Source of the DNA: Branchiostoma lanceolatum
Taxonomy: Eukaryota; Chordata; Leptocardii; Amphioxiformes; Branchiostomatidae
Direction of reading: 5' to 3'
NCBI RefSeq assembly: GCF_035083965.1
Contig: NC_089729.1
Location: forward strand, 13,999,464 to 14,063,463
DNA length: 64,000 nucleotides
In this document: one piece after another, positions 396-60,656 of the stretch
Numbering within the stretch: position 1 is the stretch's first letter
Layout of the letters: every line of letters begins with the position of its first letter
Translations under genes and position numbers: made by a program
Notes under the pieces: model-generated
What the model was told of the DNA's origin: nothing
Seen by the model: only the letters and a program-made list of their open reading frames with translations
The model's database searches: none

Positions 396-438
396 TTAAA
401 AAGTCATGATAGGGATTTGTTTGTTCAATTTACCACAG

Positions 439-16200: not shown

Positions 16201-19200
16201 AAGCGGCTAGTTCGCACATGTGTCATGGCGGACCTTCCGTGCATCGAGAACCGGGCGTTTCCTGTAGGTTTTACGCAGGTTTACTGGCAGCTCCAGCCAA
16301 ACAGATCATGAGTATTGCATCTGAAGATAATGAAATGCGGAAAGGTTGATAGGTTGATAGTTTGAGTGTTTTTTTCTATTTCTTTTCAGAACAGGTTTAG
16401 TTGAAAGGTCTCCGAGATCGGTGCTTGCACGTTCTGACAGGCGCTCCTTACGAACTTCGCAAGTTCCGTATTTTCCAAAACTCCGTCCTTCATAGAAATC
16501 AAAAGATCGTACAATATGATTGTTCAGCTATTTTCTGACCGAGTATAGTCAACTGTTTGTGTCTTATATCACTATGTGGAGACTGTAAAAAACAGCCGTT
16601 CTGGGTGCCCCATATGGCGGCCATCATAGCGTGTTTCCTGGCTTGTTGGGGCCCTAAATGGGGTATACCGGTATACCTATACAGGTATACGGGTACGGGT
16701 ACCTATACAGGGTTTTCCCCTTACCCTTTTAGATCCTATTCGTTACGATTTAAAACATTTTTACCTGTGCGCACCTGGCGGCAAGGTCATGTTTGTTTGT
16801 TCTCAATAAGGGGCTTTTCTAATAGAGCCCCCTTGGCCTCAGATAAGTGCTATTTTTCTTTGATTATATAGATATCTTATAATATAAGCTGAAGGTATAG
16901 AAAGCAGTACTTCTTGAATGAATAGAATGGATAAATATTAACGCATCCCACGATTGAAAATAAAGGATTTGAAAAGAGGAAAAGATTCCCAAGATGCACA
17001 AGAAACAATGAAAAGCCAACAAGAATAGTGTAAGACTGCTGCAATTCTGTTTGTGCTGAGGCTATTGATATAATTGGATTTCAATGTCATTAACGAGATT
17101 CCAATATGCTTTAAGCCCTTACCAAAGTCCAGATGGTCCTTGAGATGTCTGGGTACGAGGTACCTTACCTCAGACCTGATGACTCGTCTTTTCCCATCTG
17201 TGTACCTGTGAAACTTGATATCTCCCAGCAAGTTCTCTGCGGTCCTGTTAAACATATAAATTTCATAGTTAACAATCTCGTCAGGTTGTCTATTATCAAG
17301 TCTCAACAATGATGACCACATGCATGAATGACTAGGTGAGAACATAGTTAAATCTATGCTAGGTTTAAGCTAAATCCAATTGTTCTAATTTTGCTACGAA
17401 TATAAAAAAACTGCAAACATTCCAGTAGTATTATTTTTAAAATTCTTAAGTAACCTTTAAAGTCAATCATGTTTTATATTATTTGAAAGTTAAGTTCTTT
17501 ATTCACAATTTCCTTACCATGCGCGTGTACCTTGCCAGTATTTTGGTAACATCTCATCTAACTTCATTACTTCATTAAGGTTACAATTTTAATGTCTGTC
17601 ATATTTGAGGAGGTGCGTTAATCTTTACCACAACAGGACATGAATACAATACATTGATTTTCTTGAAAGTCAGCATTTTTGGTGATACTGTAAGGAAAAG
17701 ATCTAGTTGGGCTGGTTTTTGCGCAAACCATGAATGGAAGTAAAAATGCAAAATAATAACAGAAATGTGTTAAAAACTGATAAGAAATGTCAATCACATA
17801 TTTGTTTGGTTGTATTATTTTTTTTTGCCATCTAGAATATTCAAAATATCAAAAATATCACATAAAGCTGCTTTTAATGTTTTGTATGAAGGGGCTCATT
17901 GTATTCAATTACTCAGGACTAATAAAATGACATGTGTTGTTTGATTTGGCAAACCTTGCAGGCATGGAGCACTCCAAAAAGTCTTCGGTGATGATTGTCG
18001 AGCAATCAGTGACCCCTGACCCTTCCAGCCATCGTTCCACTTCCGCCACAGTCTCGTTGGATGGTTTCACTATGTCAGCAATCTCATGAAGACTCAAATA
18101 GTGACCTGTTCATTAGAGTAGGATCAAAATTTGAGTAAGAAGCATCATGATCATAGCTGCTACTGCCTGGCTATTAACAAACAAACTTCTGTTAAACCGT
18201 CTTGTGCCAGCAGTAGATCCACTCTTAAGGAAAAACCAGAATGGCTTCAGAAGAGGTAGGTCTACCATATCACAAATCCTATCCAATCCGTAGAATCATA
18301 GAAGAAATGAGAAGATGCAATAGAGATCTAGAACTGCTCTTTGTCGACTTCCACAAGGCTTTCGACTCAATAGACATGTTTGAGATACTTCTATCTCCTG
18401 TATGGAGGGATTGCGGAAAAAGCTGGCCCTGTCTACCTGGCCTGTCTACCCTGGCTACCTCCCTTTTTCGGACCCCAAGGGTATGCATGGGGGTTAGGCC
18501 TTTAATGGAATTTCCTTGAGGAAAAACTGGGTCAATGCATGTCCAGATATATGTGTGTGAGCTGGATGGAAGATAATGCCTATTGGTGTTTTGTTGGGGC
18601 GGGTGTGTGGGTGAAGCTGGTAAAGCAATTCCACCAAGACTGGAAAAAAAGTTCCAGGTACATGTATACAATAAACTGCACCTGGAATATTAAACCCAAT
18701 TGAAGTGGAAGGTAAGACAAGGAAGAAAAGAAAACTGGTAGGATGAGCCAGACAACAATAGGACTCTTGTTTGTCACAACAGCTAAATTCTAAACAGATG
18801 TCTGACACTCATTGGGGTTACTGTAGCTGATACTGACGAAATCTTTAGCAGCTGCTGTTCTGGCAAACCATCCTATCAGTTTTCGGTTTTCTTTGTTTAT
18901 CCTATATCCTGTATCTGATACCCCTTCTATCTAGTTTAACAACAAGAAGTTTGTTTACAAATGATAGATTTTCTTCCAGTGTTGATGGAGTTGCTCATAA
19001 CTGTCCCTATCCTCCAATAGTATGATCCAGCCCACCCACAGCTGGAATTGCCACTGACCCAGTTTTTCCTCAAGAAAATTCAATCAGATGCAAAACCCCC
19101 ATGCATGCCCTTGGGGTCCAAAAAGGGTAGCTAGCCAGGGTAGACAGGCCAGGTAGACAGGGCCAGCTTTTTCCGCAAACCCCCTGTATGGAATACCTCA

Positions 19201-21979
19201 GCCCCATTGTTAATGCAAGAAACAAGTTCAAGATGAGGAATCCTTACTGTAACACTGACATTTACTTTTTTTTAATTTTTTTCATCTTAGACTAGTTCTT
19301 TGCTGCCTGATGAAACCGTGATTCTATTTTCAAAGATTCATGGGCAACATTATGAACAATTCTAATTTTAGATTTAAGGACCATTCAATGTAACTCGAAA
19401 GGTTGACACTGAGCCATTGGACCTGCTTCTTCAAGTTTGAATCAGGGGGATTCAGTCCTTTTGTGAAACAATTATTTTTCTTTCACAACAAAATTGACTC
19501 CTATGCTGGTAGTACATTTCCCTAAGAAGACAAAACAAGAACTTGAAGAGCTCACGCGGTAAAATATAGGGAGATTTTGTGAATTTCTTTTTGCCATAAG
19601 CCCTAGCCGTCGTATATATCTGACTGATCTTCCACTTCCCTCAGTTCTTTAATCAATCCCAAGTAATTGTCCCTCCCATAAGATTAGCAATTGAAATTCC
19701 CATACCACTTTCAGGAAGGGGGTGATGGCCTGCAAACTGCAGCACCCGAAAATGCTACTAGGGGGCCCAAAATCACCATGTTTCTTTGAGACCTCAATAA
19801 CTACCAAAATTCATTTTAAAAAATCCATCCTAAGGATCTTGAGTTATAGGTGAGAACACACAAACTTAACCAAAAAATAGTACCCCCCGTTGATATGAGC
19901 TTCCAATCTGGAGGTAACAAGAACAAAACATCTTGCAGGGGTGTACTTGAACATGTAAGCAATAGAGGGTTGATAATTGATGGAATTTACCATACTCCTC
20001 ATGAGTTGGGTCGGACACTTTCCAGAACAGGTCTTCCAACACGTCCACATTCTGCTGCTTCAGGGCAAAGGTCAGTTTCAGGTCCTCGTCGGGTGCAACA
20101 CGCTCAATACGTGTCCAGCCCTCAGGTATACTGGGGGCAGAAAAAATAGGAGATAAATCTGGGTTGTTGGAATCAGACATGACGGTAACACGTCGGACTT
20201 CTTGCCCTTTTCTTAGTTTCTGCACAACCATACGCAGATTGAAACAATCGGACAGCTTTTTCCACCCCAAAATCAGACCAGACAGCTATTTCCGCCAATC
20301 GGACTGGACGGCTAATTCCAACAACCCTTCCCATCTTTACTTCAGTTTGAGTAAATTGCCCCCCCAAAATTGTACTCTGAACCTATGTCTTGTTGTCTGA
20401 AGCAAGGGATGCACAGTATTTATGCTTTCATGCCTCCCCATAACAATCTAGACACATTTATAATGATTTTAAAAGATGAGTACAGTCAAAACTGCCCAAG
20501 AGAGGTCACCTCACAGAGGACCGATAAAATCTCAGGTCTATGTGGCTTGCAGATGATTACTTAAACAAATTGGTTCTTTAAAGGTGTGTGTCCAAGAGAA
20601 AGATTATCTCAAGGGTTTAAATCCAAAGTGGTCACATTGGCTCAAGGTGTCCTCATGTATAGGTGCATCTGTGCAGCTTTGACTGATGCAACCTCTGTTG
20701 ATAATCTTGACAATTAAGTTCTTGTCAAAATTATTTGTATGATACACACAATCATCTATTTCTCAAATAAGTTTATGAACAAAACCAAATCATATTTACT
20801 ATTATATTTAATGTTCAGCTGCAATGGCCCTATCTTACATTATTACTTAGGAATCAAAGTGTCTTAGTGGAAAAGGGATTGAAAAACCAACAGACTCTTT
20901 ATTATACATTTTTGTGAAGCATCGGTACTATACTGAGTCCGTTACTAAATATGCATGCAACCAGTTAGTGGCCCCGCAAAAAAATACAGACAGTACTTCT
21001 GGAGTGTTCGCACTGGGGGTTTACAGAAACTAGATCTATCTGGACTAGTGCTGCGTACCCGCCGCGGTACTGTGTACCGGTACTGTACCATAAAAACTGA
21101 TTAGGTACAGGTCCAAAATACCGGATCATGAAGTACCAGTGCTGTACCGATATAAATTTACACCAAATATGTGCTTATTTTGTGACTGATATCCTGACCC
21201 CATGGGCACTTACAACACCAAACATGACCAAAGTGACACCTTCAAACAGCGTAACTAATATGCAACAGATCATTCAGGCAGGCCGGGAGTTTTGATAGCA
21301 AGGCCAAGGGAGTTTGGCGGTAGAAAAATTTACACCAAATATGTGCTTATTTTGTGACTGATCTCCTGACCCCATGGGCACTTACAACACCAAACATGAC
21401 CAAAGTGACACCTTGAAACAGCGTAACTAATATGCAACAGATCATTCAGGCAGGCCAGGAGTTTTGATAGCAAGGCCAAGGGAGTTTGGCGGTAGAAAAC
21501 CTAGTTATTTTCTTTGAATAAAGATACTGACATTATTGAAGAAGTTCATAAGAACACTATCATCATGTTAATTGTTCAGATTGTTCAGGTACAGGTACAG
21601 GTCCGGACCTGTACCTAAACCTCTGTACCGGTACCTGTATCTGTACCTGATGTTACGTTTAGGTACGCAGCACTAATCTGGACTGTCTATCCTGGGCTGT
21701 CTACCCTTTTGGGCCCAAGAGCATGCATGGGGGTTTGGCATCTAATGGAGACAGTCCAGGGTAGACAGGCCAGGTAGACAACCCAGCGTTTTCCGTAAAC
21801 CCTTCGCACTGGCCAGCCAATCAGACCTATGCGTCTGCTAAGAGATTACCGTGCACATATATGTACGTGTAGACTCACCTTGTACTCTGGCCCGGCTCCA
21901 AGTGAACGTACTCAAACGACCGCGAAAGCACGGCAGAAAACCCTGCAAACAGGACGCACAATCCCACTGCTACACGCAT
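7249..21979 (-). CDS. TPP1: Tripeptidyl-peptidase 1-like protein (sedolisin family S53), complete, 560 aa
   Basis: Twelve exons (minus strand, 5' to 3'): 21979-21879, 20130-19991, 18105-17955, 17244-17123, 13965-13796, 13285-13087, 12206-12018, 11483-11423, 10372-10252, 8983-8819, 7947-7825, 7389-7249. All junctions are GT-AG and phases agree; the total is 1,683 nt. Residues 1-19 look like a signal peptide (MRVAVGLCVLFAGFSAVLS). A propeptide runs to about residue 195, then the peptidase domain. The catalytic residues are seen: Glu271 and Asp275 in GIEASLD, Asp359 in GDDGAGC (oxyanion hole), Ser473 in LGTS|ASCP. The calcium-loop motif GWDPVTG is present near the C terminus. TPP1 is a lysosomal tripeptidyl exopeptidase autoactivated at low pH. 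Human TPP1 is 563 aa, so length and numbering agree. The SGTS consensus is LGTS here. The paralogue at 439-2362 converges on it. Confidence 0.93.
8071..8403. repeat. Dispersed repeat family R1 (copy 1)
   Basis: It starts CATGGAAATCCGACG and contains CGCCCCTGCAGTTC, AAGACCATAGCACGTCC, TTCTTGAGTTATGCTGA and an ACAGACAGACAGA run. It ends with ATCTCCATTTTTCATGGAGAT, a near-perfect palindrome. Copies with the same block order occur at about 22,680-23,007 and 23,708-24,243; a degenerate partial one lies around 19,725-19,855. It has no coding capacity. It lies in intron 10 of the TPP1-like gene. Confidence 0.75.
9930..10245 (-). mobile_element. SINE-like repeat (family of 53,395-53,665)
   Basis: It shares GGGTTCTTTTACGTGC, GCCTTTCCCAAGGGCAC and GGGATCGAACGCAGG with repeats in the aconitase introns. 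The GGGATCGAAC block is the complement of a tRNA-like B box, suggesting a tRNA-derived SINE on the minus strand. Its inner end comes within about 10 bp of exon 9 of the TPP1-like gene (10252). Confidence 0.5.
12540..12685. mobile_element. Single arm of the hAT-like foldback family
   Basis: The arm contains CCCGGAAAAGG, GGGTGGGCTA, CTACCCTTTCTGGGCCCCAA, GGGGGCTAGGCCTCTGATGG and TTTCCATGAGGAAAAGATGG in the same order as the left arm at 18,406-18,545. It is diverged and has no recognisable partner arm, so it is an old or truncated copy in intron 6 of the TPP1-like gene. Confidence 0.55.
14511..15633. mobile_element. Non-autonomous TIR element in a TA run (Tc1/mariner-like spacing)
   Basis: The ends are inverted: the left begins ACGGAACCTGCCCTAACTTG, and the complement of the right end reads ACGGGAGCTGCCCTAACATG (17 of 20 match). 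TATATATA abuts both ends, consistent with insertion at TA. The 1.1 kb interior has no convincing transposase ORF. It lies in intron 4 of the TPP1-like gene. Confidence 0.6.
15764..16726. mobile_element. 963-bp foldback element with ~320-bp arms and 9-bp target duplication (MULE-like)
   Basis: The arms 15764-16090 and about 16405-16726 are inverted copies. Terminal sequence is GGGTAAGGGGAAAACCCTGT, and the complement closes the right end. The direct repeat TTTTAGATC flanks the element (15755-15763 and 16727-16735). A 9-bp target duplication with very long terminal inverted repeats is typical of Mutator-like (MULE) foldback elements. The central about 310 bp has no transposase. ORFs in the two arms are mirror translations of one another, not genes. 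Confidence 0.85.
18168..19250 (+). pseudogene. LINE reverse-transcriptase fragment, frameshifted and split by a MITE
   Basis: Bases 18168-18397 translate to RT-like sequence with RKNQNGFRRGRSTISQIL, then after a one-base frame change RRIIEEMRR and FVDFHKAFDSI. These are conserved finger/palm blocks of non-LTR reverse transcriptases. The reading frame stops at the foldback element and resumes after it (from 19192) as LYGIPQPIVNAR. It is too short to classify beyond non-LTR. It is dead, in intron 2 of the TPP1-like gene. Confidence 0.75.
18406..19183. mobile_element. 778-bp foldback MITE, 8-bp target duplication CTGTATGG (hAT-like)
   Basis: The arms run from GCGGAAAAAGCTGGCCCTGT (left, from about 18413) and its complement (right, to about 19176), each about 140 bp. 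The right arm also has GACAGGCCAGGTAGACAGGG. CTGTATGG is duplicated at 18398-18405 and 19184-19191. Removing the element and one copy restores the LINE frame ...CTG TAT GGA ATA CCT, which fixes the boundaries. An 8-bp duplication suggests hAT-type transposition. No transposase is present. Confidence 0.85.
20161..20327. mobile_element. 167-bp MITE with 13-bp perfect inverted ends
   Basis: It starts GGGTTGTTGGAAT and ends ATTCCAACAACCC, a perfect inverted pair, with internal CGGACAGCTTTTTCC / GACAGCTATTTCCGCC subrepeats. It lies only about 30 bp from the acceptor of TPP1-like exon 2 (minus strand), with its arm abutting the polypyrimidine region. No target duplication is obvious. Confidence 0.7.
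21046..21675. mobile_element. 630-bp hAT MITE nested in the foldback element
   Basis: It has perfect 14-bp terminal inverted repeats, TAGTGCTGCGTACC and GGTACGCAGCACTA, and the 8-bp direct repeat ATCTGGAC at 21038-21045 and 21676-21683. It is rich in GGTACAGGTACAG-type subterminal motifs on both sides. TIR type and 8-bp duplication indicate hAT. There is no transposase. An internal 172-bp tandem duplication is listed separately. Confidence 0.9.
21154..21499. repeat. 172-bp tandem duplication inside the hAT MITE
   Basis: Two nearly identical copies start with AAATTTACACCAAATATGTG at 21154 and 21326 and end with GGTAGAAAA. Differences are single bases (for example GATATCC versus GATCTCC, GGCCGGGAG versus GGCCAGGAG). 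Confidence 0.9.
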
Positions 21980-26880: not shown

Positions 26881-28265
26881 AGGATGTCTACAGAGCACTT
26901 GATACACCTTCTCCAAGTAGTTGTGGGGTCAAATCCCACACACCTCATAATCGCAGGAGACTTTAACTACCCTGAAATTGACTGGAAACAAGTCACTTCA
27001 TGTGCAAACGAGACTCGCCCTTCCCATCAATTTATACGTTGTATGCACGAAAATCTTCTGTACCAGCATGTCTTCAAGCCGACTAGGTACAGGGTAGGAG
27101 AGTCACCGAACATTCTGGATTTAGTTTTAACCAATGAAGATGGGATGGTGGAGAAAATTGAGTACCTTCCAGGCATCGGACTAAGTGACCATATAAGGAT
27201 ACAATTTGAAACCAAGCTATACACTGACAGAAGGGACAGTCTAAAGCCAAGACTCAACCTATACCGCGGCGACTATGCCAATATGGTTGCGGACTTATCC
27301 GGTACTGACTGGGACTCCAGGCTTGAGAACAGGTCCTTCGACGAGGCGTATAGTGTTTTTAAGGACATCCTACAGGCCAGCATTGACTTACACATTCCCA
27401 ACACGAGAAAGAAGGCGTGCAAGAAGAACTTGTACACCACATCAGAAGTCAAGAGACTAAGCAAGAAGAAGCGGGCCAGTTGGGACCGTTACACTGCCTC
27501 TAGAGACGTGGTGGACTACGCCCGCTACGCTGCTATACGTAACGACATTAGAAGGCTCACCAGGAGACTCCGATACGAGTTTGAATCCAACCTTGTCCAG
27601 GACATAAAACAGAATCCAAAGTCATTTTGGAAGTATGTCAACTCCCGTCTGAAAACAAGAACTACTATCGGAGACCTGAAGAGGACAGACGGCACCATGA
27701 CAAGTAGCAATAAGGAGAAAGCTTCTGCAGTGTGTTTACGAAAGAAGATACCGACCACATGCCAGTGATGGAAGCCAAATACTATCTGCCTCCCTTGAAG
27801 GACGTCCTAGTTACCCCTGAACTCATGTTGAAAAAAAATGAGAAACCTTAAGAAGGGGAAGTCCCCCGGACCCGATGGGTGGCACCCCAAGATCCTGGCT
27901 GAGGTCGCAGAAGGAGTCGCCAAACCACTCGCCATCATCCTCCGTAAGTCTTTAGATGAAGGCCGCCTGGCAGATGAATGGAAGCTCGCCCATATAACTG
28001 CTGTACATAAGAAGGGACCGAAGACTGAACCCGGAAACTACCGCCCGATTAGTCTCACATCCATCATTGTGAAGCTCTTCGAATCTGTTATCCGGGACGT
28101 GATCGTAGACCACATGATGCTGAATGAACTGTTCTGCGACCAGCAACATGGCTTTGTGCCTGGCAGATCTTGTACAACACAACTGATAGCCACCATAGAC
28201 CAGTGGACTCGAGCGGTAGAAGATGGTGAACCCTTGGACGCCATATACCTTGACTTCAGAAAGGC
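26881..28265 (+). pseudogene. CR1/L2-like LINE, 5'-truncated: endonuclease C-terminal part and first half of reverse transcriptase
   Basis: The frame from 26884 carries the endonuclease block IIAGDFNYPEIDW, then NILDLVLTNEDG and LSDHIRIQFE (endonuclease C-terminal His region). The frame shifts near 27,730 and again at the A8 run near 27,830. From about 27,838 the RT fingers begin: GKSPGPDGWHPKIL, AHITAVHKKG, NYRPISLTS and FVPGRSCTTQLI, ending at YLDFRKA. There the 4.2 kb element 28,266-32,495 interrupts it. The order endonuclease then RT and the motif style fit CR1/L2-type LINEs. Truncation at the 5' end is usual for LINEs. It is inactive. Confidence 0.85.
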
Positions 28266-29454
28266 GAATTGTTCTCACTCGAAGAGACGGAGTCTGAATT
28301 GGCACTTGACATCATTTTAATCAGTTCGCGAGTGATGGTACAGTTCTTATGCATCACAGATGTCAACGGCCTAGTACTGCAACTAGGCGGGTAACTGAAG
28401 TTACACAGGTCACGGGATACCTGTTGAGTAACCACTTAGGATGGAGTTAGCGTGCCTCTTAATATAACAGACTATAACGAGACTAGATTCTATAATACAA
28501 ATCAGTCATTAACTAAGAGAGGTAACTGGCTCTGCCAGTGTAAAATCTGAACTGGGAGAACATTAAACGCAGTAACTAGCCAAAGCATGAAGTTAAAAGC
28601 TGATACGAGGTAAAATCGTGCGGTAGCACTGGGACGAGTGCACATATTCTGTCCCAAATCACAAACAGTCAACTTCACGTACAGTGTGGGCTCATTCTTC
28701 TCTCTGATGAGCGACTGGTATCAACAAACACAGTATTTAACAGGTGGCATATACAATATATACAGAAAAAGGTGCAGGTGAGTGTGACTCAGGCTCTGCC
28801 CGGATCTGCCTCGCGTCTAAAATGGGAGCTTCAGTGTTCGCACTGACTATATACATGGCTGCAAGACTCAGTCTTGTGTACATAGCCCATAGGGGTTGTC
28901 GCTGTCACTGTTTAAGCTCGGAACGATGGTGCAAACTTAAGTGAACTAAACTACTCACTACCACATGTGCGTAACTTACAATGTGTCGGAGACGGTAGAA
29001 CAAGAGTGCTTAACTGACAAACTATACACAATGCTTGATACTTAAAGTTTGCATGACATGAGTCTGATGTGGGGACGGCGGTGGCGTGTCAAGCTCTGAG
29101 TCCCAGATTCAGTTAATCTCCGAGCTCACGTGTGTTCTCGCGCAATCTCGTGTGACATGCGCCATTCTCGCGAGAACAATTCCGTCATATGCTGCCTACT
29201 GTCATCATGTGTGCCTAATTGTTCTCACTCGAAGAGACGGAGTCTGAATTGGCACTTGACATCATTTTAATCAGTTCGCGAGTGATGGTACAGTTCTTAT
29301 GCATCACAGATGTCAACGGCCAGACCGAAGGCGCCAAGAAGACTCCGATGAGAGGTAAGTTTGTCTGTTGTCGTGCAGGGGTCGCCTAAATATTGTTTGG
29401 TCGCGGTACCGTTGTTGACCGCGGACCCTGGGGGAAAACTGAGATCCACAACTC

Positions 29455-32392: not shown

Positions 32393-32495
32393 TTAATCTC
32401 CGAGCTCACGTGTGTTCTCGCGCAATCTCGTGTGACATGCGCCATTCTCGCGAGAACAATTCCGTCATATGCTGCCTACTGTCATCATGTGTGCC

Positions 32496-33652
32496 TTTTG
32501 ACTCAGTGCCTCACGCACGTCTGTTGTACAAACTGAGCCAGTATGGAATCAGGGGCAAGTTACACGGCTGGATCCAGGCTTTCCTAACGGACAGGAAACA
32601 GCGAGTGTGTGTTGACGGCGAAATGTCTGACTGTTCCGCTGTGACAAGTGGAATTCCCCAGGGATCCGTCCTTGGACCGATTCTTTTTGTTGTTTTCATT
32701 AATGACATGCCTGAATGTATCAGTAGCACCTGTAATCTCTTCGCCGATGACGCTAAGGTGTTTCGCCGAGTGAACTCTCCACAGGAGACAGCTGTCTTGC
32801 AAGGGGACATAAACAACCTGGCAGGCTGGTCTAACGACTGGCAGCTCAGCTTCAACATTGAGAAGTGTAAACGAATGCACATTGGGTATGGAAACAAGAG
32901 TACGAGATGCAAGGTCACATTTTAGATGAGACCAGTGAGGAGCGTGACCTTGGTGTAACCGTCGATCATAAACTCAAATTCCACGCCCATTGTACCGCCA
33001 CTGCTGGCAAAGCTTTTCGAACCCTTGGTCTCATCAGGAAAAGCTTCCAACGGCTTGATGAGAAAACTGTGCCCATATTGTACAAAACCATGGTTCGTCC
33101 AATAATCGAATACGGAAACGTCATATGGGGCCCACACTACAAAGGTGACCAGCAACTGCTCGAGAGAGTACAGCACAAGGCGACGCGACTTCAACGGTTC
33201 CTGGTTTTGCCGATATCAGCTATGAGGAGAGACTACGCCGCCTCAAACTTCCAACCCTTGAACACCGCCGTAAGAGAGGTGACATGATACAGGTGTTCAA
33301 GTTCGTGCAAGGATTCGACCGTGTTAACCCAAGCCGCCTGTTCAACTTCAATGTTGACAGACGCACCAGAGGCCACCCATACAAGATGGTCAAACCTCAA
33401 GCTAAGAAGCCGGCCAGGTCGAACTGCTTCAGTGTCAGGTCTGTCAACTCATGGAACAGCCTCCCCGCGGATGTTGTAGCTGCCGAAACTGTGAACACCT
33501 TCAAGTCAAAACTGGACAACCACTGGAGGGGACTGGAGTACTCGCCCAGCCCAACATAAACTCTAATCACAAACTCCAAACTTTTAGCTTAAGACGCGGA
33601 TCTTATAGGCAATATGCCTCCTATCCGAGCACTATGTTATGTTATGTTATAA
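32496..33652 (+). pseudogene. CR1/L2-like LINE, second half: RT palm/thumb, C-terminal domain, 3' tail
   Basis: It continues the RT interrupted at 28,265: FDSVPHARLLYKL, SGIPQGSVLGPILF and FADDAKVF (the catalytic Asp pair), then WQLSFNIEKCKRMHIG. A frame change at about 32,907 leads to ERDLGVTVDHKLKFH and PIIEYGNVIWGPH. Another near 33,220 leads to a C-terminal stretch SVNSWNSLPADVV ending at the stop near 33,559. The 3' end is TATGTTATGTTATGTTATAA, the short tandem tail usual for CR1/L2-type LINEs, abutting the first array unit. Confidence 0.85.
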
Positions 33653-36600
33653 TAATTATACAAGTAAATACAATTCATCACATATGCTTTCCATATGGAA
33701 GAATTCAACGAGCCCCAACGTCCGGCCCCAGAAGCACAATACGCACTAACTCCAACCGTTCTCACGATACTTCAAAATATATCTCGTGATCGTCACGAGA
33801 TCGTTGGACTTTTTCGAAAACACGAGGTTAAATCTTGCAAAAGAATATAAAATATAAGTTGAAACCAAGATTCTAAGGATTACTAGTGTTGGTCGTAACG
33901 ATTCCCGACCATATGGGTTTCTACGCTATAGTACAGAGCTCGAGCAATCCTCTTGTTCAAAAATCGAAAAACAATGTGTTTCACACTAAGATGGTGCAAC
34001 AGGTGATATAATCAAGCCTTTTTCATCATTTGTTAACCTCATCTGACTACCTTAAGAAAATTGCAGACAGAAAATGTACTATATCATAGTCAACCCTGGA
34101 CATTTCAGATTTGCATTCTTTAAGCCATCAGCGCTTCCAATAGCAGCAAGATTATTGAAATGAAGTAGAGAGGTGGACCAAGTGGCAAAACGACAATAAC
34201 TGAACAGAGCATAGAAATTTCTAAGTAAGCACTACAAAATCCAGAACCTTTATAGATGAAACTTTAGCAACAACATAAAAATTGGACTATGCTACGGTAA
34301 TTCCTTACCTGAGACTTTAGTTGTCGTGTGTTCTTCCTCGGAACGCAAAGGTCAAAAGAGACCGATTCAATGATGTGCGCAGCAAGATCTAGAGTTATCC
34401 TATCTGCGCATGTACGTGTGGGTGGTGCACCTCTCAAGAACGCACCATTTCAATATAGGGGTTGTTTGGTGTTACAGTAGCATTTTAGAGTACACCTCTG
34501 TTATTAGAAAATATCAATTTTATCAATTTTCAGTTTCTAAACTAGACTTCTACTGCTTCGACGAAGTCTTTAACAACCCACGCCTATCCACAGGATATTT
34601 GAATTTGTCAAAGACCGATTGAGATGGAACTACTCGGAAGTGTCTTTTTATAACAAGTGTGGTTCCGCCCACAAGTACGATTCAATAAAAATCTTCACAT
34701 TTAGCAGAATACGACGGGTGTACCAAATGATAGCTGACAAATATGATCACGCTGATAGCATTCAAATCCTGGCGAAGCGACGGCTTATTACATTAAGATC
34801 AACTGCAACATTAATACCTGCGAACAATCTCCTACGTTTGTAATGACATCATGCATGTTGCATTGTTTTCTTAGTAACTTCACAAAAAATTACCGTACGC
34901 GATCATCATTGTTCTTAACTTGAGTGGCATGTAGTAATATTGTTACGCAGGTAACAAAAAATATGAACGACCAACTAGCAGACTACGCAAGAAAAGACTA
35001 TTCCCAGAAGTGAAAAAAAAACGTATGCTGATATTTTGCCTTCAGAAAATAACTTAACGATGGTACCTGAAATGTACATCTGCAATTTAATGCATAACGA
35101 GGGGAGGGGCCTATTTGTTGCAATAGAAAGAAGGTGGGGCTGCCTACGGACCGTGCTCAAACGTAAATGATTGGTAATTGTTCTGTAGAAATTAAAGGGA
35201 AGCGGGCCCATATGAGGTGTTGGTCATTGCTCTGTAGATTAAAGGGTAGATATGAGATGTAAGAATTATACAAGTAAATAAAATTCATCACATATGCTTT
35301 CCATATGGACGAATTCAACGAGCCCCAACGTCCGGCCCCAGAAGCACAATACGCACTAACTCCAACCGTTCCCACGATACTTCAAAATATATCTCGTGAT
35401 CGTCACGAGATCGTTGGACTTTTTCGAAAACACGAGGTTAAATCTTGCAAAAGAATATAAAATATAAGTTGAAACCAAGATTCTAACGTATAAGGAGTAC
35501 TAGTGTTGGTCGTAACGATTCCCGACCATTTGGGTTTCTACGCTACAGTACAGAGCTCGAGCAATCCTCTTGTTCAAAAATCGAAAAACAATGTGTTTCA
35601 CACTGAGATAGAGCAACAGGTGATATAATCACGCCTTTTTCATCATTTCTTAACCTCATCTGACTACCTTAAGAAAATTGCAGACAGAAAATGTACTATA
35701 TCATAGTCAACCCTGGACATTTCAGATTTGCATTCTTTAAGCCATCAGCGCTTCCAATAGCAGCAAGATTATTGAAATGAAGTAGAGAGGTGGACCAAGT
35801 GGCAAAACGACAATAACTGAACAGAGCATAGAAATTTCTAAGTAAGCACTACAAAATCCAGAACCTTTATAGATGAAACTTTAGCAACAACATAAAAATT
35901 GGACAATGCTACGGTAATTCTTTACCTGAGACTTTAGTTGTCGTGTGTTCTTCCTCGGAACGCAAAGGTCAAAAGAGACGGATTGATGTGCTTAGCAAGA
36001 GTTATCCTATCTGCGCATGTACGTGTGGGTGGTGCACCTCTCAAGAACGCACCATTTCAATATAGGGGTTGTTTGGTGTTACAGTAGCATTTTAGAGTAC
36101 ACCTCTGTTATTAGAAAATATCAATTTTATCAATTTTCAGTTTCTAAACTAGATTTCTACTGCTTCGACGAAGTCTTTAACAACCGACGCCTATCCACAG
36201 GATATTTGAATTTGTCAAAGACCGATTGAGATGGAACTACTCGGAAGTGTCTTTTTATAACAAGTGTGGTTCCGCCCACAGGTACGATTCAATAAAAATC
36301 TTCACATTTAGCGGAATACGACGGGTGTACCAAATGATAGCTGACAAATATGATCACGCTGATAGCATTCAAATCCTGGCGGCTTATTATATTAAGATCA
36401 ACTGCAACATTAATACCTGCGAACAATCTCCTACGTTTGTAATGACATCATGCATGTTGCATTGTTTTCTTAGTACTGACTTCACAAAAAATTACCGTAC
36501 GCGATCATCATTGTTCTTAACTTGAGTGGCATGTAGTAATATTGTTACGCAGGTAACAAAAAATATGAACGACGAACCAGCAGACTACGCAAGAAAAGAC

Positions 36601-39600
36601 TATTCCCAGAAGTGTAAAAAAAACATATGCTGATATTTTGCCTTCAGAAAACAACTTAACGATGATACCTGAAATGTACATCTGCAATTTATTGCATAAC
36701 GAGGGGAGGGGCCTATTTGTTGCAATAGAAAGAAGGTGGGGCTTCCTACGGACCGTGCTCAAACGTAAATGATTGGTAATTGTTCTGTAGAAATTAAAGG
36801 GAAACGGGCCCATATGAGGTGTTGGTAATTGCTCTGTAGATTAAAGGGTAGATATGAGATGTAAGAATTATACAAGTAAATAAAATTCATCACATATGCT
36901 TTCCATATGGAAGAATTCAACGAGCTCCAACGTCCGGCCCCAGAAGCACAATACGCACTGACTCCAACCGTTCCCACGATACTTCAAAATATATCTCGTG
37001 ATCGTCACGAGATCGTTGGACTTTTTCGAAAACACGAGGTTAAATCTTGCAAAAGAATATAAAATATAAGTTGAAACCAAGATTCTAACGTATAAGGAGT
37101 ACTAGTGTTGGTCGTAACGATTCCCGACCATTTGGGTTTCTACGCTACAGTACAGAGCTCGAGCAATCCTCTTGTTCAAAAATCGAAAAACAATGTGTTT
37201 CACACTGAGATAGAGCAACAGGTGATATAATCACGCCTTTTTCATCATTTCTTAACCTCATCTGACTACCTTAAGAAAATTGCAGACAGAAAATGTACTA
37301 TATCATAGTCAACCCTGGACATTTCAGATTTGCATTCTTTAAGCCATCAGCGCTTCCAATAGCAGCAAGATTAATGAAATGAAGTAGAGAGGTGGACCAA
37401 GTGGCAAAACGACAATAACTGAACAGAGCATAGAAATTTCTAAGTAAGCACTACAAAATCCAGAACCTTTATAGATGAAACTTTAGCAACAACATAAAAA
37501 TTGGACTATGCTACGGTAATTCCTTACCTGAGAGTTTAGTTGTCGTGTGTTCTTCCTCGGAACGCAAAGGTCAAAAGAGACCGATTCAATGATGTGCTTA
37601 GCAAGATTTATCCTATCTGCGCATGTACGTGTGGGTGGTGCACCTCTCAAGAACGCACCATTTCAATATAGGGGTTGTTTGGTGTTACAGTAGCATTTTA
37701 GAGTACACCTCTGTTATTAGAAAATATCAATTTTATCAATTTTCAGTTTCTAAACTAGATTTCTACTGCTTCGACGAAGTCTTTAACAACCGACGCCTAT
37801 CCACAGGATATTTGAATTTGTCAAAGACCGATTGAGATGGAACTACTCGGAAGTGTCTTTTTATAACAAGTGTGGTTCCGCCCACAGGTACGATTCAATA
37901 AAAATCTTCACATTTAGCGGAATACGACGGGTGTACCAAATGATAGCTGACAAATATGATCACGCTGATAGCATTCAAATCCTGGCGGCTTATTATATTA
38001 AGATCAACTGCAACATTAATACCTGCGAACAATCTCCTACGTTTGTAATGACATCATGCATGTTGCATTGTTTTCTTAGTACTGACTTCACAAAAAATTA
38101 CCGTACGCGATCATCATTGTTCTTAACTTGAGTGGCATGTAGTAATATTGTTACGCAGGTAACAAAAAATATGAACGACGAACCAGCAGACTACGCAAGA
38201 AAAGACTATTCCCAGAAGTGTAAAAAAAACATATGCTGATATTTTGCCTTCAGAAAACAACTTAACGATGATACCTGAAATGTACATCTGCAATTTATTG
38301 CATAACGAGGGGAGGGGCCTATTTGTTGCAATAGAAAGAAGGTGGGGCTGCCTACGGACCGTGCTCAAACGTAAATGATTGGTAATTGTTCTGTAGAAAT
38401 TAAAGGGAAACGGGCCCATATGAGGTGTTGGTAATTGCTCTGTAGATTAAAGGGTAGATATGAGATGTAAGAATTATACAAGTAAATAAAATTCATCACA
38501 TATGCTTTCCATATGGAAGAATTCAACGAGCCCCAACGTCCGGCCCCAGAAGCACAATACGCACTGACTCCAACCGTTCCCACGATACTTCAAAATATAT
38601 CTCGTGATCGTCACGAGATCGTTGGACTTTTTCGAAAACACGAGGTTAAATCTTGCAAAAGAATATAAAATATAAGTTGAAACCAAGATTCTAACGTATA
38701 AGGAGTACTAGTGTTGGTCGTAACGATTCCCGACCATTTGGGTTTCTACGCTACAGTACAGAGCTCGAGCAATCCTCTTGTTCAAAAATCGAAAAACAAT
38801 GTGTTTCACACTGAGATAGAGCAACAGGTGATATAATCACGCCTTTTTCATCATTTCTTAACCTCATCTGACTACCTTAAGAAAATTGCAGACAGAAAAT
38901 GTACTATATCATAGTCAACCCTGGACATTTCAGATTTGCATTCTTTAAGCCATCAGCGCTTCCAATAGCAGCAAGATTAATGAAATGAAGTAGAGAGGTG
39001 GACCAAGTGGCAAAACGACAATAACTGAACAGAGCATAGAAATTTCTAAGTAAGCACTACAAAATCCAGAACCTTTATAGATGAAACTTTAGCAACAACA
39101 TAAAAATTGGACTATGCTACGGTAATTCCTTACCTGAGAGTTTAGTTGTCGTGTGTTCTTCCTCGGAACGCAAAGGTCAAAAGAGACCGATTCAATGATG
39201 TGCTTAGCAAGATTTATCCTATCTGCGCATGTACGTGTGGGTGGTGCACCTCTCAAGAACGCACCATTTCAATATAGGGGTTGTTTGGTGTTACAGTAGC
39301 ATTTTAGAGTACACCTCTGTTATTAGAAAATATCAATTTTATCAATTTTCAGTTTCTAAACTAGATTTCTACTGCTTCGACGAAGTCTTTAACAACCGAC
39401 GCCTATCCACAGGATATTTGAATTTGTCAAAGACCGATTGAGATGGAACTACTCGGAAGTGTCTTTTTATAACAAGTGTGGTTCCGCCCACAGGTACGAT
39501 TCAATAAAAATCTTCACATTTAGCGGAATACGACGGGTGTACCAAATGATAGCTGACAAATATGATCACGCTGATAGCATTCAAATCCTGGCGGCTTATT

Positions 39601-41600
39601 ATATTAAGATCAACTGCAACATTAATACCTGCGAACAATCTCCTACGTTTGTAATGACATCATGCATGTTGCATTGTTTTCTTAGTACTGACTTCACAAA
39701 AAATTACCGTACGCGATCATCATTGTTCTTAACTTGAGTGGCATGTAGTAATATTGTTACGCAGGTAACAAAAAATATGAACGACGAACCAGCAGACTAC
39801 GCAAGAAAAGACTATTCCCAGAAGTGTAAAAAAAACATATGCTGATATTTTGCCTTCAGAAAACAACTTAACGATGATACCTGAAATGTACATCTGCAAT
39901 TTATTGCATAACGAGGGGAGGGGCCTATTTGTTGCAATAGAAAGAAGGTGGGGCTGCCTACGGACCGTGCTCAAACGTAAATGATTGGTAATTGTTCTGT
40001 AGAAATTAAAGGGAAACGGGCCCATATGAGGTGTTGGTAATTGCTCTGTAGATTAAAGGGTAGATATGAGATGTAAGAATTATACAAGTAAATAAAATTC
40101 ATCACATATGCTTTCCATATGGAAGAATTCAACGAGCCCCAACGTCCGGCCCCAGAAGCACAATACGCACTGACTCCAACCGTTCCCACGATACTTCAAA
40201 ATATATCTCGTGATCGTCACGAGATCGTTGGACTTTTTCGAAAACACGAGGTTAAATCTTGCAAAAGAATATAAAATATAAGTTGAAACCAAGATTCTAA
40301 CGTATAAGGAGTACTAGTGTTGGTCGTAACGATTCCCGACCATTTGGGTTTCTACGCTACAGTACAGAGCTCGAGCAATCCTCTTGTTCAAAAATCGAAA
40401 AACAATGTGTTTCACACTGAGATAGAGCAACAGGTGATATAATCACGCATTTTTCATCATTTCTTAACCTCATCTGACTACCTTAAGAAAATTGCAGACA
40501 GAAAATGTACTATATCATAGTCAACCCTGGACATTTCAGATTTGCATTCTTTAAGCCATCAGGGCTTCCAATAGCAGCAAGATTAATGAAATGAAGTAGA
40601 GAGGTGGACCAAGTGGCAAAACGACAATAACTGAACAGAGCATAGAAATTTCTAAGTAAGCACTACAAAATCCAGAACCTTTATAGATGAAACTTTAGCA
40701 ACAACATAAAAATTGGACTATGCTACGGTAATTCCTTACCTGAGAGTTTAGTTGTCGTGTGTTCTTCCTCGGAACGCAAAGGTCAAAAGAGACCGATTCA
40801 ATGATGTGCTTAGCAAGATTTATCCTATCTGCGCATGTACGTGTGGGTGGTGCACCTCTCAAGAACGCACCATTTCAATATAGGGGTTGTTTGGTGTTAC
40901 AGTAGCATTTTAGAGTACACCTCTGTTATTAGAAAATATCAATTTTATCAATTTTCAGTTTCTAAACTAGATTTCTACTGCTTCGACGAAGTTATTAACA
41001 ACCCAAGTTTATCTGTTAGATATTTGCATTCGTCAAAGACCGATAGAGATGGACCTACTGGGAAGTCCCAGTGTGGTTCCGCCCATAACAAGTGTGGTTC
41101 CGCCCACAAATGATATTTGCCCTCTAATTACATGGCAAGTGAAAAATAATCTAACGTCACATGTAGCGGAATACAACGGGTGTAATAAATGATAACTGAC
41201 AAATATGATGACGCTGATAGCATTCAAATTCTGGCGAAGCGACGGCTTATGACATTAATATCAATTGCAACATTAATACCTGCGAACAATCTCCTATGTT
41301 TATAATAACATCATGCATGTTGTATTGTTTTCTTCGTACTGACTTCACAAAAATTACCGTACGCGATCATTATTGTTCTTAAATTGAGTGTCATGTAGTA
41401 ATATTATTACGCAGGTGACAAATGATACGAACAACGAACTAGCAGACTACGCAAGAAAAGACTATTCCCAGGAGTGTAAAGAGAACATATGCTGACATTT
41501 TGAAAACAACGACGATCCCGAAAATACATCCGCAAGATATTGCATAACCAGGGGAGGGGGTCTATTTTGTTGCAATAGAAAGAGGGTGTAGCCTTCAACC
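33653..41600. repeat. Tandem array of a ~1,606-bp unit, five copies
   Basis: Units start with GAATTATACAAGTAAATA at about 33653, 35263, 36865, 38471 and 40077, giving lengths of 1610, 1602, 1606 and 1606. Units 3 and 4 differ at very few bases, units 1 and 2 more. Unit 5 is near-identical until about 40,985, then diverges and ends around 41,600. Each unit has a perfect ATCTCGTGA/TCACGAGAT palindrome (for example 33781-33801), a donor-like CTCAG|GTAAGG on the minus strand in the first two units, and about 58-bp direct subrepeats at its right end (TGTTCTGTAGAAATTAAAGG / TGCTCTGTAGATTAAAGG). ORFs of 70-100 codons recur only because the sequence does. I do not recognise an rRNA, snRNA or tRNA gene in it. 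Confidence 0.95.
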
Positions 41601-42168: not shown

Positions 42169-42259
42169 CCAATCACAACGTAGGTTATTGCAATGCTAAC
42201 CAATCACACGGCATGCTCATTCAAATCTACATAATCCAATTAGTGAAGGCTGTATAAAT
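42169..42259 (+). promoter_or_regulatory. Histone-type promoter: CCAAT boxes and TATA box
   Basis: CCAATCA occurs at 42169-42175 and 42200-42206, CCAATTA at 42237-42243, and TATAAAT at 42253-42259. The TATA box is 78 bp before the ATG at 42337, leaving a short leader of about 50 nt. Repeated CCAAT plus TATA close to a short 5' UTR is the standard arrangement of replication-dependent core histone genes. Confidence 0.8.
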
Positions 42260-42336
42260 CCGGTCTAAAACGTCCACAGACTACTTTATTTTTCCGTAGC
42301 TCATCCAGAACAAAACAGACGACTTCCCGATCGAAC

Positions 42337-42561
42337 ATGGCTCGCATCAAGCGCATCGCCCGCAAGTCCACCGTGTACGTCGTACCGAAGAGAGTCACCA
42401 ACGGCGGCGGCGCTGCTAGGAAGTCCCGCCGCTACAGGCCCAGCACCGTGGCCCTGAGAGAGATCCGTAGCTACCAGAAGACGACGAAGCGAGTGATCGT
42501 CCGCAAGCGCTTGGTGAGGGGCATTCGGCTTGCTCGTCGCATCCGCGGGGAGCGGGGATAA
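42337..42561 (+). CDS. 74-aa arginine-rich H3-derived protein lacking the histone fold
   Basis: This is an intact, intronless frame from ATG to TAA. Residues 2-12 match the H3 tail (ARIKRIARKST versus ARTKQTARKST), keeping K4, K9 and S10 equivalents. Residues 26-30 AARKS match H3 24-28. Residues 32-50 (RYRPSTVALREIRSYQKTT) match the alpha-N region, followed by RKRLVRGI, and residues 64-74 match the H3 C terminus (LARRIRGER). H3 positions of roughly 29-39 and 75-124 are missing, so alpha-1 (most), alpha-2 and alpha-3 are gone. It has 19 Arg and 7 Lys against 2 Glu. Codons are GC-rich as in histone genes. Flanking TATA/CCAAT boxes and the histone 3' stem-loop indicate a real histone-type transcription unit. 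A nucleosomal H3 role is impossible without the fold; a protamine-like DNA-binding role is inference. Alternatively it is a recently truncated H3 gene with a preserved frame. Confidence 0.85.
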   Translation: MARIKRIARKSTVYVVPKRVTNGGGAARKSRRYRPSTVALREIRSYQKTTKRVIVRKRLVRGIRLARRIRGERG

Positions 42562-42633
42562 ACAGGACGTCAACATGGACAACCAACGGCTTTGACGGAT
42601 CACGGATCGGACTCAACATCACGTGGAACCCCC

Positions 42634-42649
42634 GGCCCTTTTCAGGGCT
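42634..42649 (+). terminator. Histone mRNA 3' stem-loop
   Basis: GGCCCTTTTCAGGGCT folds into a six-base-pair stem with a four-base UUUC loop and matches the histone consensus GGYYYTTYTNARRRCC except for a terminal G-U pair. It begins 72 bp after the stop codon. It is bound by SLBP in replication-dependent histone mRNAs. Confidence 0.9.
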
Positions 42650-42662
42650 ACGCACATACCCA

Positions 42663-42673
42663 CAAAAGAGCTG
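42663..42673 (+). promoter_or_regulatory. Histone downstream element (U7 snRNA target)
   Basis: The purine-rich CAAAAGAGCTG lies 13 nt after the stem-loop, the normal spacing for the element that pairs with U7 snRNA to direct non-polyadenylated 3' processing. Confidence 0.75.
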
Positions 42674-42699
42674 TATCGTCTCACATCACGATCGTTGTA

Positions 42700-43920: not shown

Positions 43921-44425
43921 GGCTTTTTTTAAGAGAGGACGCAGCACCCCCATGCCCTGACTACACACCCCCTTACCCTGGCAAGCACATGATCTACATG
44001 TAACAAGCATAACATTTTGATCGATCAGGCCCGCTACTACCACATGCAGCCAGTCTTCCACTGTGAACTGCCTGACAGTGATCTTGTCCCTCAGGAAGCT
44101 TTAGAATGGTCCATTTTCACTTAAAATTCTCTAAACCTCTACAGTATGTTCCCCCTTTCAATTTTTTCCTAGAAAACCCTGTTTACTGTTGCATGCTTAC
44201 ATTTCTTTTACAAGGGCTTTTTCTAAAGAGGCGACCAAGGGCGCTGTGCCCCCATGCCCTCACTTGGAGAACCCTTTCCTAGAGAATCCCGTTTACTATC
44301 GCATCCCATAACGTTTACCAGCCTGAGGGCTTTTACTAAAGAGGGGAATAAGGGCGGAGTGCCAAATGCCCTCACTTGCACAACCTTTTTGTAGAGAATC
44401 CCTGTTTACTGTCGCATCCCGTTGC
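43920..44425. repeat. ~110-120-bp degenerate tandem repeat overlapping the PLD6 stop codon
   Basis: Blocks AGGGCTTTTTNTAAAGAGG, CCATGCCCTCACTTG and CTGTTTACTGTCGCATCCC recur in order. The last block starts at about 44,179 (TTGCATGC variant), 44,289 (TACTATCGCATCCC) and 44,403. The final copy contains the PLD6 stop and the codons for its last residues, so the repeat seems to have spread from the gene's 3' end. Confidence 0.8.
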
Positions 44426-46896
44426 TAGTTCCTGTGGCTTTTAAATCTTTCAGAAACTTCTCGGACTCCTCCCTTCGCTTCTTCAACAGTCCCGGCTCGT
44501 ACATGTTCCACAATCGCTGGAACTCTTCCGCGTACGGTCGCAATATCCGCCTGCTGTTGGTGACCAGGAGGTTCTCGGAGTTTCCCGTGATGGCCTGCCG
44601 CGTCCAGTTGAAGGACCCGTTGATGAGGATGGAGTTGTCTACTATGGCAAACTTGTGGTGCATGAAGTATGGGCTGTTGTCATGACGGACTTGGATACCT
44701 GGAACATAATACAAACATTAGTGAATAAGACAGTCCTATAGTAGAACTATTTAAGGCCATGTTGATTTGATTATATACAAATGTAGATAACATCCACGCG
44801 CACGGCTTTCAACCATACTGTAAATCGTCAAAGTAGATAAATGCCTTAAATTGCACACAAAAATACATGTATCACTAATGTCATAGAATGCTTCAATTCC
44901 AAAGTCAAAGAAGATGTGAAAGAACAAGAATGCAAAATCTATTGCTTGTTATACTCTGTGTCTTCAGTCATTTGTTCAATCTTTCTGACCACTTATAGAT
45001 TTCCTAATGAAGAAAACTTTCCCATGTGCGGTATAAACTGTGAATCAGCTTATCAGAGCAAACTTAGACCCGATTCACAAAATTTCTGAACGTACAAGAC
45101 GAAATCGTATGTCGAAGCCTTTTGTCTTGGGTGTGAACTGGCCCGCGCGTCGTTCGGCAGCCATTTTTATGGCCCGTATGATTTTGTCATACGCCACCTC
45201 CAGGCCTAAGGTGAATGTACAACCGCCCAGAGCAGAGCAGGCTCGTACATGAGTTGCCAAAAAAATATGGAAAAACTGATATTTTAATCAATGTCGTAGA
45301 ATGCTATTCCAAGTCCGAGTTTCTTGCAATTGTGTGTGAAAAGGAAACTGCTGTATGTCGCACACCATTGTCGTGCGTCCAGAAATTTTCCCAGCGTGGA
45401 TAGGGTCTTCATCTTTCTTTGGAGAAACGCACTCACCTTCGCTCCTGAAGTACCACACTTGGCTCCCGGTTTGTTCCATCTGCTCCTTGTCTGTGATGAT
45501 CCTGACTAGGACTCCCTTGTGGTGCAGGTCAACCACAGTTTTGGCCAGATCAAGACAAGATATCGTGTACACACACAGGTCTAAAGTCTTCTTGGCACTG
45601 TAAGGAACAAGTAACTTGCATATATGGCATTTAAAAAAAGAATAGAAACTCAATATACAGAAATACTTTTCCAATAATTACATCGTACATGTATCATACA
45701 AAGACAGATATGTTAAAAGAGTACAGCAAGTATACACAGTACATGTACATGTGTATACAACGATATTATAGATGAATATCTGTGTACAAAAAGAGAGCTC
45801 GAGCATTTAGTCATTGGATAAAGCTTTCTTCTTCTTGAAGTGATTACATGTACATCTAAAGCCTTAGTTGTAAATTCACTATTTTTGCGGGGACTTAATT
45901 TTGCAGTAGAAGAAAGTACCTTATATTTTAGCAGTGTTTAAGTTCACAATTAAAACAAGTCTGTAGTATACTCTATAGTAGGAATACAATGGAAATACAC
46001 ATTGGTAGTGTCCTGACTTTGTGATGAAGAGGTAACTGCAAAAAATACACTGCAAACATTTCAAGATTTACAGTAGCATTGCAGCTGCTTGAGTTTTCTT
46101 TCTTCTTTTTTTTTCAAAACTGAACCAGAAAATAATAAATGGCACAAACCTGCATAAGTATTGTTTGAGCTGACTGAGAGAAGTGGTGTCGTGTGTAAAT
46201 TTGCATCTCCTCATCTTACAGCCACCTGGCTGCGACTGGCGGGGACAGGACACCTGCGCATCTGGGAAGAACAGCACCTGTGTAGAAAAATCAAAAAGTC
46301 AATCATGATCACAAACAACGTTCTTCCGTACCCAACCAAAGGGGAGTTGTCCAGAAATTTTAGTCCGAGTAAACAAAGAAGAACAACACCACAAATCGCA
46401 AACCTGTAAAAATGGCAACATTGAAACAAAATGGTGGCGCCCATTGACGCGAATTAAAACAATACATAGTGCATATGGGAGTTGGGAAAGTTCTGAAGGA
46501 AATAGAATAAGCTTACTGTCAATTATTTAAGTGTCATGTTTATCAATCTCATATCTTTAAACATAATAAATTACCAGTAAGAGACACCATGGACATTATT
46601 TAGGAATGTCCTTGGAGACACTAACCATAAAACATTAATATAAATATTCCAGGTTTTCGATCAGGCAATGACACGAGGGAACCAACGTTAAAATCTATGA
46701 ATGTTGAAAATACAATCTTTTGCAGACGACAAGTACATGTATGACCTCCATGTATATGTACCTTGTGTATCACGTGTCCCTTCTGTGCCTTCTCTCCAGA
46801 ACTCACTCTCTTCCGTCGCCGGAAAATTAGAAGATACAACAAGTCTACCACACAACTGGCTGCTAAGGCGATGCCAAACAACTTCAGATAGCCCAT
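44406..46896 (-). CDS. PLD6: Mitochondrial phospholipase D6 (MitoPLD/Zucchini), 238 aa
   Basis: Four exons (minus strand): 46896-46762, 46277-46150, 45597-45437, 44698-44406 (stop TAA). Phases agree. I start at ATG 46896 because the frame upstream offers only TTG. Residues 2-23 form a hydrophobic N-terminal anchor followed by RRRKR, as in the mitochondrial outer membrane anchor of the family. VLFFPDAQV opens the catalytic part. C56, C65, C70 and H74 form a CCCH motif typical of Zucchini proteins. The single HKD motif is H156-K157-x4-D162 (MHHKFAIVDNSILINGSFNWT region). The family acts as a dimer: it hydrolyses cardiolipin and/or is the endoribonuclease that makes primary piRNA 5' ends. The human protein is 252 aa. 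It is head to head with aconitase. Confidence 0.93.

Positions 46897-47308: not shown

Positions 47309-60656
<13,348 letters not shown>

Follow-up and report, generated by a model that had tools for sequence, protein, structure and literature searches.

Is an H3-derived gene that has lost the histone fold, inside a transcription unit of the replication-dependent type, maintained for its short product, or is it an H3 gene that died recently? This question is raised by a locus of the lancelet Branchiostoma lanceolatum that we analyzed within a 64-kb window, by which we mean the whole stretch of DNA under study. Histone orphons are isolated histone genes away from clusters, and the locus is a solitary histone H3 orphon in 64 kb: tblastn with H1, H2A, H2B, H3, and H4 found no other histone gene with E <1 in the window. 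The original prediction of an H3-derived 74-aa frame lacking about 50 fold residues was confirmed, as the best PDB match of the product is H3.3 (E 2e-10; aligned residues 1-61) and the locus matches H3 in tblastn with E 3e-10 and 46% identity. The core histone family was the only Pfam match of the product at E 0.01, with a score of 21 bits that lies under the cut-off of 26.4 for the Histone family, and residues 59-73 can be matched to the C-terminus of H3 once the intervening fold is skipped, at an i-Evalue of 34 that is not significant alone. This homology to H3 rules out a pure chance ORF. An H3-derived orphon with an intact replication-dependent unit is real and unusual, and its features are collected in Table 1.

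Table 1. Positions of the promoter, coding, and 3' processing features of the H3-derived locus within the window.
Feature	Position	Strand	Sequence or remark
CCAAT box 1	42169-42173	+	GACCAATCAC
CCAAT box 2	42200-42204	+	AACCAATCAC
CCAAT box 3	42236-42240	+	
TATA box	42253-42258	+	TATAAA
H3-derived ORF	42337-42561	+	MARIKRIARKSTVYVVPKRVTNGGGAARKSRRYRPSTVALREIRSYQKTTKRVIVRKRLVRGIRLARRIRGERG; 74 codons and stop, uninterrupted
RYRP and alpha-N segment	42430-42486	+	RYRPSTVALREIRSYQKTT; near-intact
Deletion junction	42517-42525	+	codons AGG GGC ATT; H3 R72/D123 or E73/I124
Histone 3' stem-loop	42634-42649	+	GGCCCTTTTCAGGGCT; sole exact consensus match in window
Histone downstream element (HDE)	42664-42675	+	AAAAGAGCTGTA; single copy in window

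The arrangement of three CCAAT boxes within 90 nt, followed by TATA[AT]A within 60 nt, occurs once in the window when both strands are scanned, a uniqueness that is a raw count taken in the real window alone. Judging from spacing, transcription would be expected to start near 42282. Exact matches to the stem-loop consensus numbered one, compared to about 0.08 expected from base composition, and with one mismatch allowed just one was again found, compared to 2.9 expected by chance. Rfam RF00032 fits the stem-loop region over all 46 positions (31.4 bits, E 6e-7 in an 801-base search), and the whole-window Rfam scan was empty because this score is under the gathering score of 34. The stem-loop folds as a histone hairpin with 6 bp and a 4-nt loop (-8.2 kcal/mol); 3 of 200 shuffles fold as well as the hairpin alone, and 29 of 200 do so with flanks included. 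The HDE starts 14 nt after the stem-loop and presumably pairs with U7 snRNA, being complementary to 12 bases of the 5' end of the vertebrate U7. The ATG of the frame lies in a favourable context, with A at -3 and G at +4. Thus, the complete histone-type unit that had been predicted stands with respect to the three CCAAT boxes, TATA box, stem-loop, and HDE, and deviates at its 3' end, where the terminal pair of the stem is G-U and the 5' flank is CCCCC instead of A-rich.

Processing of replication-dependent histone pre-mRNA needs a stem-loop and a downstream element, according to the relevant section of PMC9756948. The locus has the stem-loop, a U7-type HDE at the right distance, CCAAT and TATA boxes, and an intronless frame, all as in a replication-dependent gene, and it lacks the neighbouring histone genes of such a gene within 64 kb. 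With a replication-dependent H3.2 gene it shares the uninterrupted frame, CCAAT/TATA, stem-loop, HDE, N-terminus, alpha-N, and C-terminus, but it has no fold, a shorter tail, and changes at 27 of 73 residues, and it is solitary in 64 kb. The promoter and HDE both lie outside the mature mRNA and yet are kept; therefore, the locus is not a retrocopy, and retroposition is ruled out. Duplication of a replication-dependent H3 gene at the DNA level may have produced a dispersed orphon that then diverged. Mussel H1 genes have been titled 'orphon' (reference lists of PMC12153100 and PMC5011920); the locus resembles histone orphons as a solitary member of a multigene family, whereas the orphons so titled in these lists are H1 genes.

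Branchiostoma H3.2 and H3.3 proteins are identical to those of other animals, as stated in part of PMC2939574, and canonical H3 is therefore a sound starting point for comparison. We used four alignments to H3, made with an aligner whose gaps were restricted to whole codons; frameshifts that compensate each other within an interval could escape it. In all four alignments, 50 codons are missing between R72 and D123 and another 3-4 at LPF(Q), and the fold from alpha-1 to alpha-3 is consequently absent (residues about 73-122 and LPF(Q) missing). The tail is also shorter than that of H3 by 9-11 codons. The loss of about 50 residues had originally been given as the whole loss and is therefore too low, by these tail codons and by the 3-4 codons of alpha-1 (LPF or LPFQ). 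The alignments disagree on the tail, and they imply 3 to 5 indels and 24-31 differences over 71-74 aligned residues (27 of 73 in alignment B). The H3-homologous blocks (tail start, alpha-N, RLVR, and C-terminus) share one frame; thus, the net length change in each of the three intervals is a multiple of three. An assembly error that fused both ends of a normal H3 gene, in which the 150-base loss might be an assembly collapse, is extremely improbable: the 24-31 amino-acid differences and two or more other indels are inexplicable by end joining, and these many other changes rule out such joining as the sole cause.

Retention of the H3 tail, another part of the original prediction, held for ARKST around K9, which is intact, and failed for the K4 context, where T3 and T6 are replaced by Ile and Q5 by Arg, and for the 9-11 lost codons. 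AARKS had been read as the H3 K27 motif. With each of 5 gap-cost settings, the best codon-aware alignment pairs it with GVKKP of H3, and tblastn pairs it with VKKP; aligning AARKS with AARKS (K27) scored 102.7, compared to 111.0 for the GVKKP alignment and 105.1 for the other alternative. The K27 reading is thus not favoured, but the score gap is modest; AARKS need not be the K27 motif and may still descend from it. The loop that is diagnostic of a centromeric H3 falls in the deleted part, which leaves descent from such an H3 neither favoured nor disfavoured.

REI and KDI meet at the 150-bp loss. Their codons are in phase and identical at up to 7 of 9 bases; averaged over synonymous codons, no more than 1.1% of tripeptide pairs spaced 30-60 codons apart match as well. 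The histone fold may have been lost through a deletion at this in-frame microhomology, a route available to any gene encoding canonical H3. Given the microhomology, this 150-bp loss is apt to preserve the frame with or without selection, and we therefore dropped its in-frame state as evidence of selection. Without the big deletion, the two in-frame indels have P 0.04-0.11, assuming that 20-33% of indels are multiples of three. The same in-phase codons favour a young pseudogene, in which a dispersed, divergent full-length H3 duplicate with an altered and shorter tail was under selection, recently suffered the microhomology deletion, and left a functionless frame. The promoter and 3' signals would then not yet have decayed, and RNA may still be made. 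We consider this history and that of a constrained live unit equally likely, each of them somewhat short of an even chance.

The count of 26 basic and 2 acidic residues that had been reported for the 74-aa product was confirmed; its pI is about 12, and Cys and His are absent. We compared its net charge of +24 to simulated neutral decay with equal amino-acid changes (9 settings of 1000 runs and 6 settings of 2000 runs; 4 alignments). Decay from a start of about 20 gave means of 11-14, with P<=0.0015 for the observed charge retention in 15 of 15 settings and <=0.004 among stop-free runs. On the basis of this retention we reject plain neutral decay from H3. Lys/Arg sites kept as either Lys or Arg numbered 21 of 24, compared to 28 of 49 other sites that were identical (P 0.016), and with Lys-Arg swaps counted as kept the three alignments gave P 0.029, 0.016, and 0.006. 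Exact identity of Lys/Arg sites was not significantly higher than that of other sites (18 of 24 and 28 of 49, respectively; P 0.20), with P 0.18, 0.20, and 0.12 in the three alignments. Near the lost fold, over the 42 aligned positions that start at H3 residue 40, the product carries a charge of +14, more than any of the 118 compared H3s (mean 9.9, maximum 12), which speaks against a young pseudogene. Over all 73 aligned positions, one of the 118 is as basic as the product.

The cis-elements deviate at 1 of 49 bases, compared to 28 of 146 first and second codon positions (P 0.001-0.002), and the stem-loop and HDE alone at 1 of 28 bases (P 0.03-0.05); this test was post hoc, its single deviation was counted by hand, and decayed elements would have gone uncounted. 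Cis-elements better kept than codons would be expected if the locus acted as RNA or regulatory DNA, for example as a histone-type promoter or a U7/SLBP decoy with an incidental frame, but the directional retention of charge within the frame argues against this reading, which we regard as improbable. The stem-loop also distinguishes the locus from the Hydractinia H1.3 pseudogene, which lost its stem-loop according to the part of PMC5011920 that treats it, and this difference counts against a young pseudogene.

Stops, frameshifts, and lost control elements, the marks of a pseudogene, are all absent from the locus, and the lost fold breaks H3 function. Simulated decay left the frame stop-free with P 0.19-0.42, and mononucleotide shuffles of the ORF were stop-free 13% of the time; thus, the openness of the frame is weak evidence. 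The observed/expected CpG ratio is 1.20 at the locus, which is not depleted, compared to 0.69 in the window as a whole, which served as the reference; this counts in favour of a maintained unit. We dropped retention of GC3 as evidence because its ancestral codons were reconstructed from those of the present gene, which makes the argument circular. It also counts against a maintained frame that the locus was singled out because it looked intact.

Many of the changes may predate the deletion, since G44S, R53S, and others occur in full-length H3s (G44S in 2 of 142 and R53S in 4 of 142 compared). Substitution types known from full-length H3s account for 21 of 27 changes, which is not a significant excess over the 66% expected (P 0.07; P 0.18 for fold-proximal changes). 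The changed sites are also more variable in divergent H3s (0.34 compared to 0.12), a comparison biased by a sample of H3s found through words shared with the query, and this variability favours a young pseudogene. So do the short-tailed full-length H3s P0001 and P0014, which are known to exist. Within a wider group of short-tailed or divergent full-length H3s (P0001, P0013, P0014, and P0144-P0147), some share T3I, T6I, S57T, or a shortened tail with the locus, but all keep the fold region that it lacks. Several changes at the locus fit a young pseudogene poorly: L60R (0 of 141 compared H3s), D123G (0 of 142), loss of LPF(Q), and, in 3 of 4 alignments, an extra codon all fall in fold-critical places with the frame unbroken. 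The absence of L60R and D123G from every compared H3 is as expected if change continued once the fold no longer mattered.

If a divergent H3 of full length had first been under selection and had then recently undergone the deletion, nearly all of the marks at the locus would be explained. L60R, D123G, and the excess of charge beside the lost fold would not be, and these are few events. The claim that the frame is maintained rather than freshly broken therefore survives in part. Charge retention and the integrity of the cis-elements speak against neutral decay since duplication, but the microhomology favours an in-frame deletion, neither the stop-free frame nor exact Lys/Arg identity is exceptional, and most of these marks would also be left by selection that acted earlier on a divergent H3 of full length.

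The nearest precedent also favours a young pseudogene. H3sh of Oikopleura dioica is a truncated H3 without detectable expression that is deemed a likely pseudogene in the portion of PMC3156773 describing it; H3sh and the locus are both short H3-derived genes of non-vertebrate chordates, and H3sh sits in a histone gene cluster, unlike the solitary lancelet locus (PMC3156773). A young pseudogene would likewise explain why the proteins listed include no relative of this small size. The H3 proteins listed from the public set (23; 120 of 139), the smallest of which has 97 aa, include no fold-less homologue. This set contains TPP1 of this species, so an annotated 74-aa product might have turned up in it, unless its lower length limit excludes short proteins. 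Among 142 compared H3s, at most 14 of 68 fold positions are missing from any one protein. Among the matches listed from the open-licence literature, we found neither a fold-less protein derived from a core histone nor this gene, and viral contigs held no relative of the ORF (49 pattern-matching stretches, 0 confirmed).

If the constrained unit is the correct reading, an orphon H3 gene that lost its fold has kept an S-phase-type transcription unit working for a constrained, basic product, a possibility to which we give just under half of our belief. RNA polymerase II would start about 30 nt past the TATA box, SLBP on the stem-loop and U7 snRNP on the HDE would bring about cleavage a few bases after the stem-loop, and the mature mRNA would be roughly 370 nt and non-polyadenylated. 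Translation would yield a strongly basic protein of 73 residues that is for the most part unstructured. Lacking alpha-1 to alpha-3, this protein is predicted neither to pair with H4 nor to be handled by H3-H4 chaperones; it may bind DNA or RNA via its charge, and ARKST (K9/S10) would be open to H3-tail enzymes. The fold-less product may itself be under selection. We think it rather doubtful that this derivative of the H3 tail and alpha-N is a chromatin protein that coats DNA or occupies H3K9-type readers or writers outside nucleosomes. As a short, cationic product it could also be a basic extracellular or granule peptide of the histone-derived antimicrobial type, but inspection of its N-terminus, MARIKRIARKST, by eye reveals no signal peptide, and an S-phase histone promoter and 3' end would be odd control for a defence peptide; we judge this reading very improbable.

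The composition had been called protamine-like, which overstates it: Lys and Arg make up 26 of 73 residues without Met, compared to 31 of 135 in H3. Like protamines and protamine-like proteins, the product is small and rich in Arg and Lys (26 of 74, or 35%). Of the protamine-like and protamine sperm nuclear basic proteins described in excerpts of PMC13148410 and PMC11607694, some descend from H1/H5 and others are far richer in Arg; the protamine-like ones are those of H1/H5 descent, and they carry a winged helix (PMC13148410). By comparison, the lancelet product has 19 Arg in 74 residues, short of the very Arg-rich composition of protamines, and its only Pfam match, to core histones, points to core-histone rather than H1/H5 descent. 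A sperm or oocyte chromatin protein and a decoy for tail readers, the roles originally suggested for the product, are candidate functions. If the frame is maintained, the locus would be one of few cases in which a core histone, rather than H1, has become a basic chromatin protein devoid of the fold; it would also be a natural test of the role of the H3 tail apart from the nucleosome, and an instance of the S-phase mRNA system with a non-nucleosomal cargo. If it is not maintained, the locus would be a well-preserved snapshot of H3 gene death.

The H3-derived locus lies 0.6-0.7 kb past the end of a tandem array of a 1606-bp unit, which has about five copies at 33650-41600, the last copy being diverged and partial; the first repeated block seen is at 33650, and most of the compared blocks are 95-100% identical and some 61-91%. 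A tripeptidyl-peptidase 1 (TPP1) gene occupies 7249-20285 (-), where ten exon translations joined by eye gave 490 residues. Residues 17-447 are identical to B. lanceolatum P0024 at 423 of 427 ungapped columns; all four mismatches fall at hand-joined borders, the 61 gap columns are exon parts omitted or misjoined, and the last exon lies outside the alignment. From this agreement we take the source of the window to be B. lanceolatum. TPP1-like exons recognized by eye at 406-1800 (+) suggest a neighbouring paralogue, and the plus-strand frame at 1504-1797 had no Pfam match. Between 29455 and 30529, ORFs of 308 aa (-) and 297 aa (+) lie over tandem repeats of 144 bp and 102 bp, and the 308-aa ORF had no Pfam match. 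Pieces of a non-LTR retrotransposon at 26884-28320 and 32437-32925 (+) encode endonuclease and reverse-transcriptase domains. A phospholipase-D-type exon at 44406-44663 (-) matches PLDc_2 with 60 bits and presumably resembles PLD6, and an aconitase exon lies at 56312-56506 (+; Pfam 55 bits).
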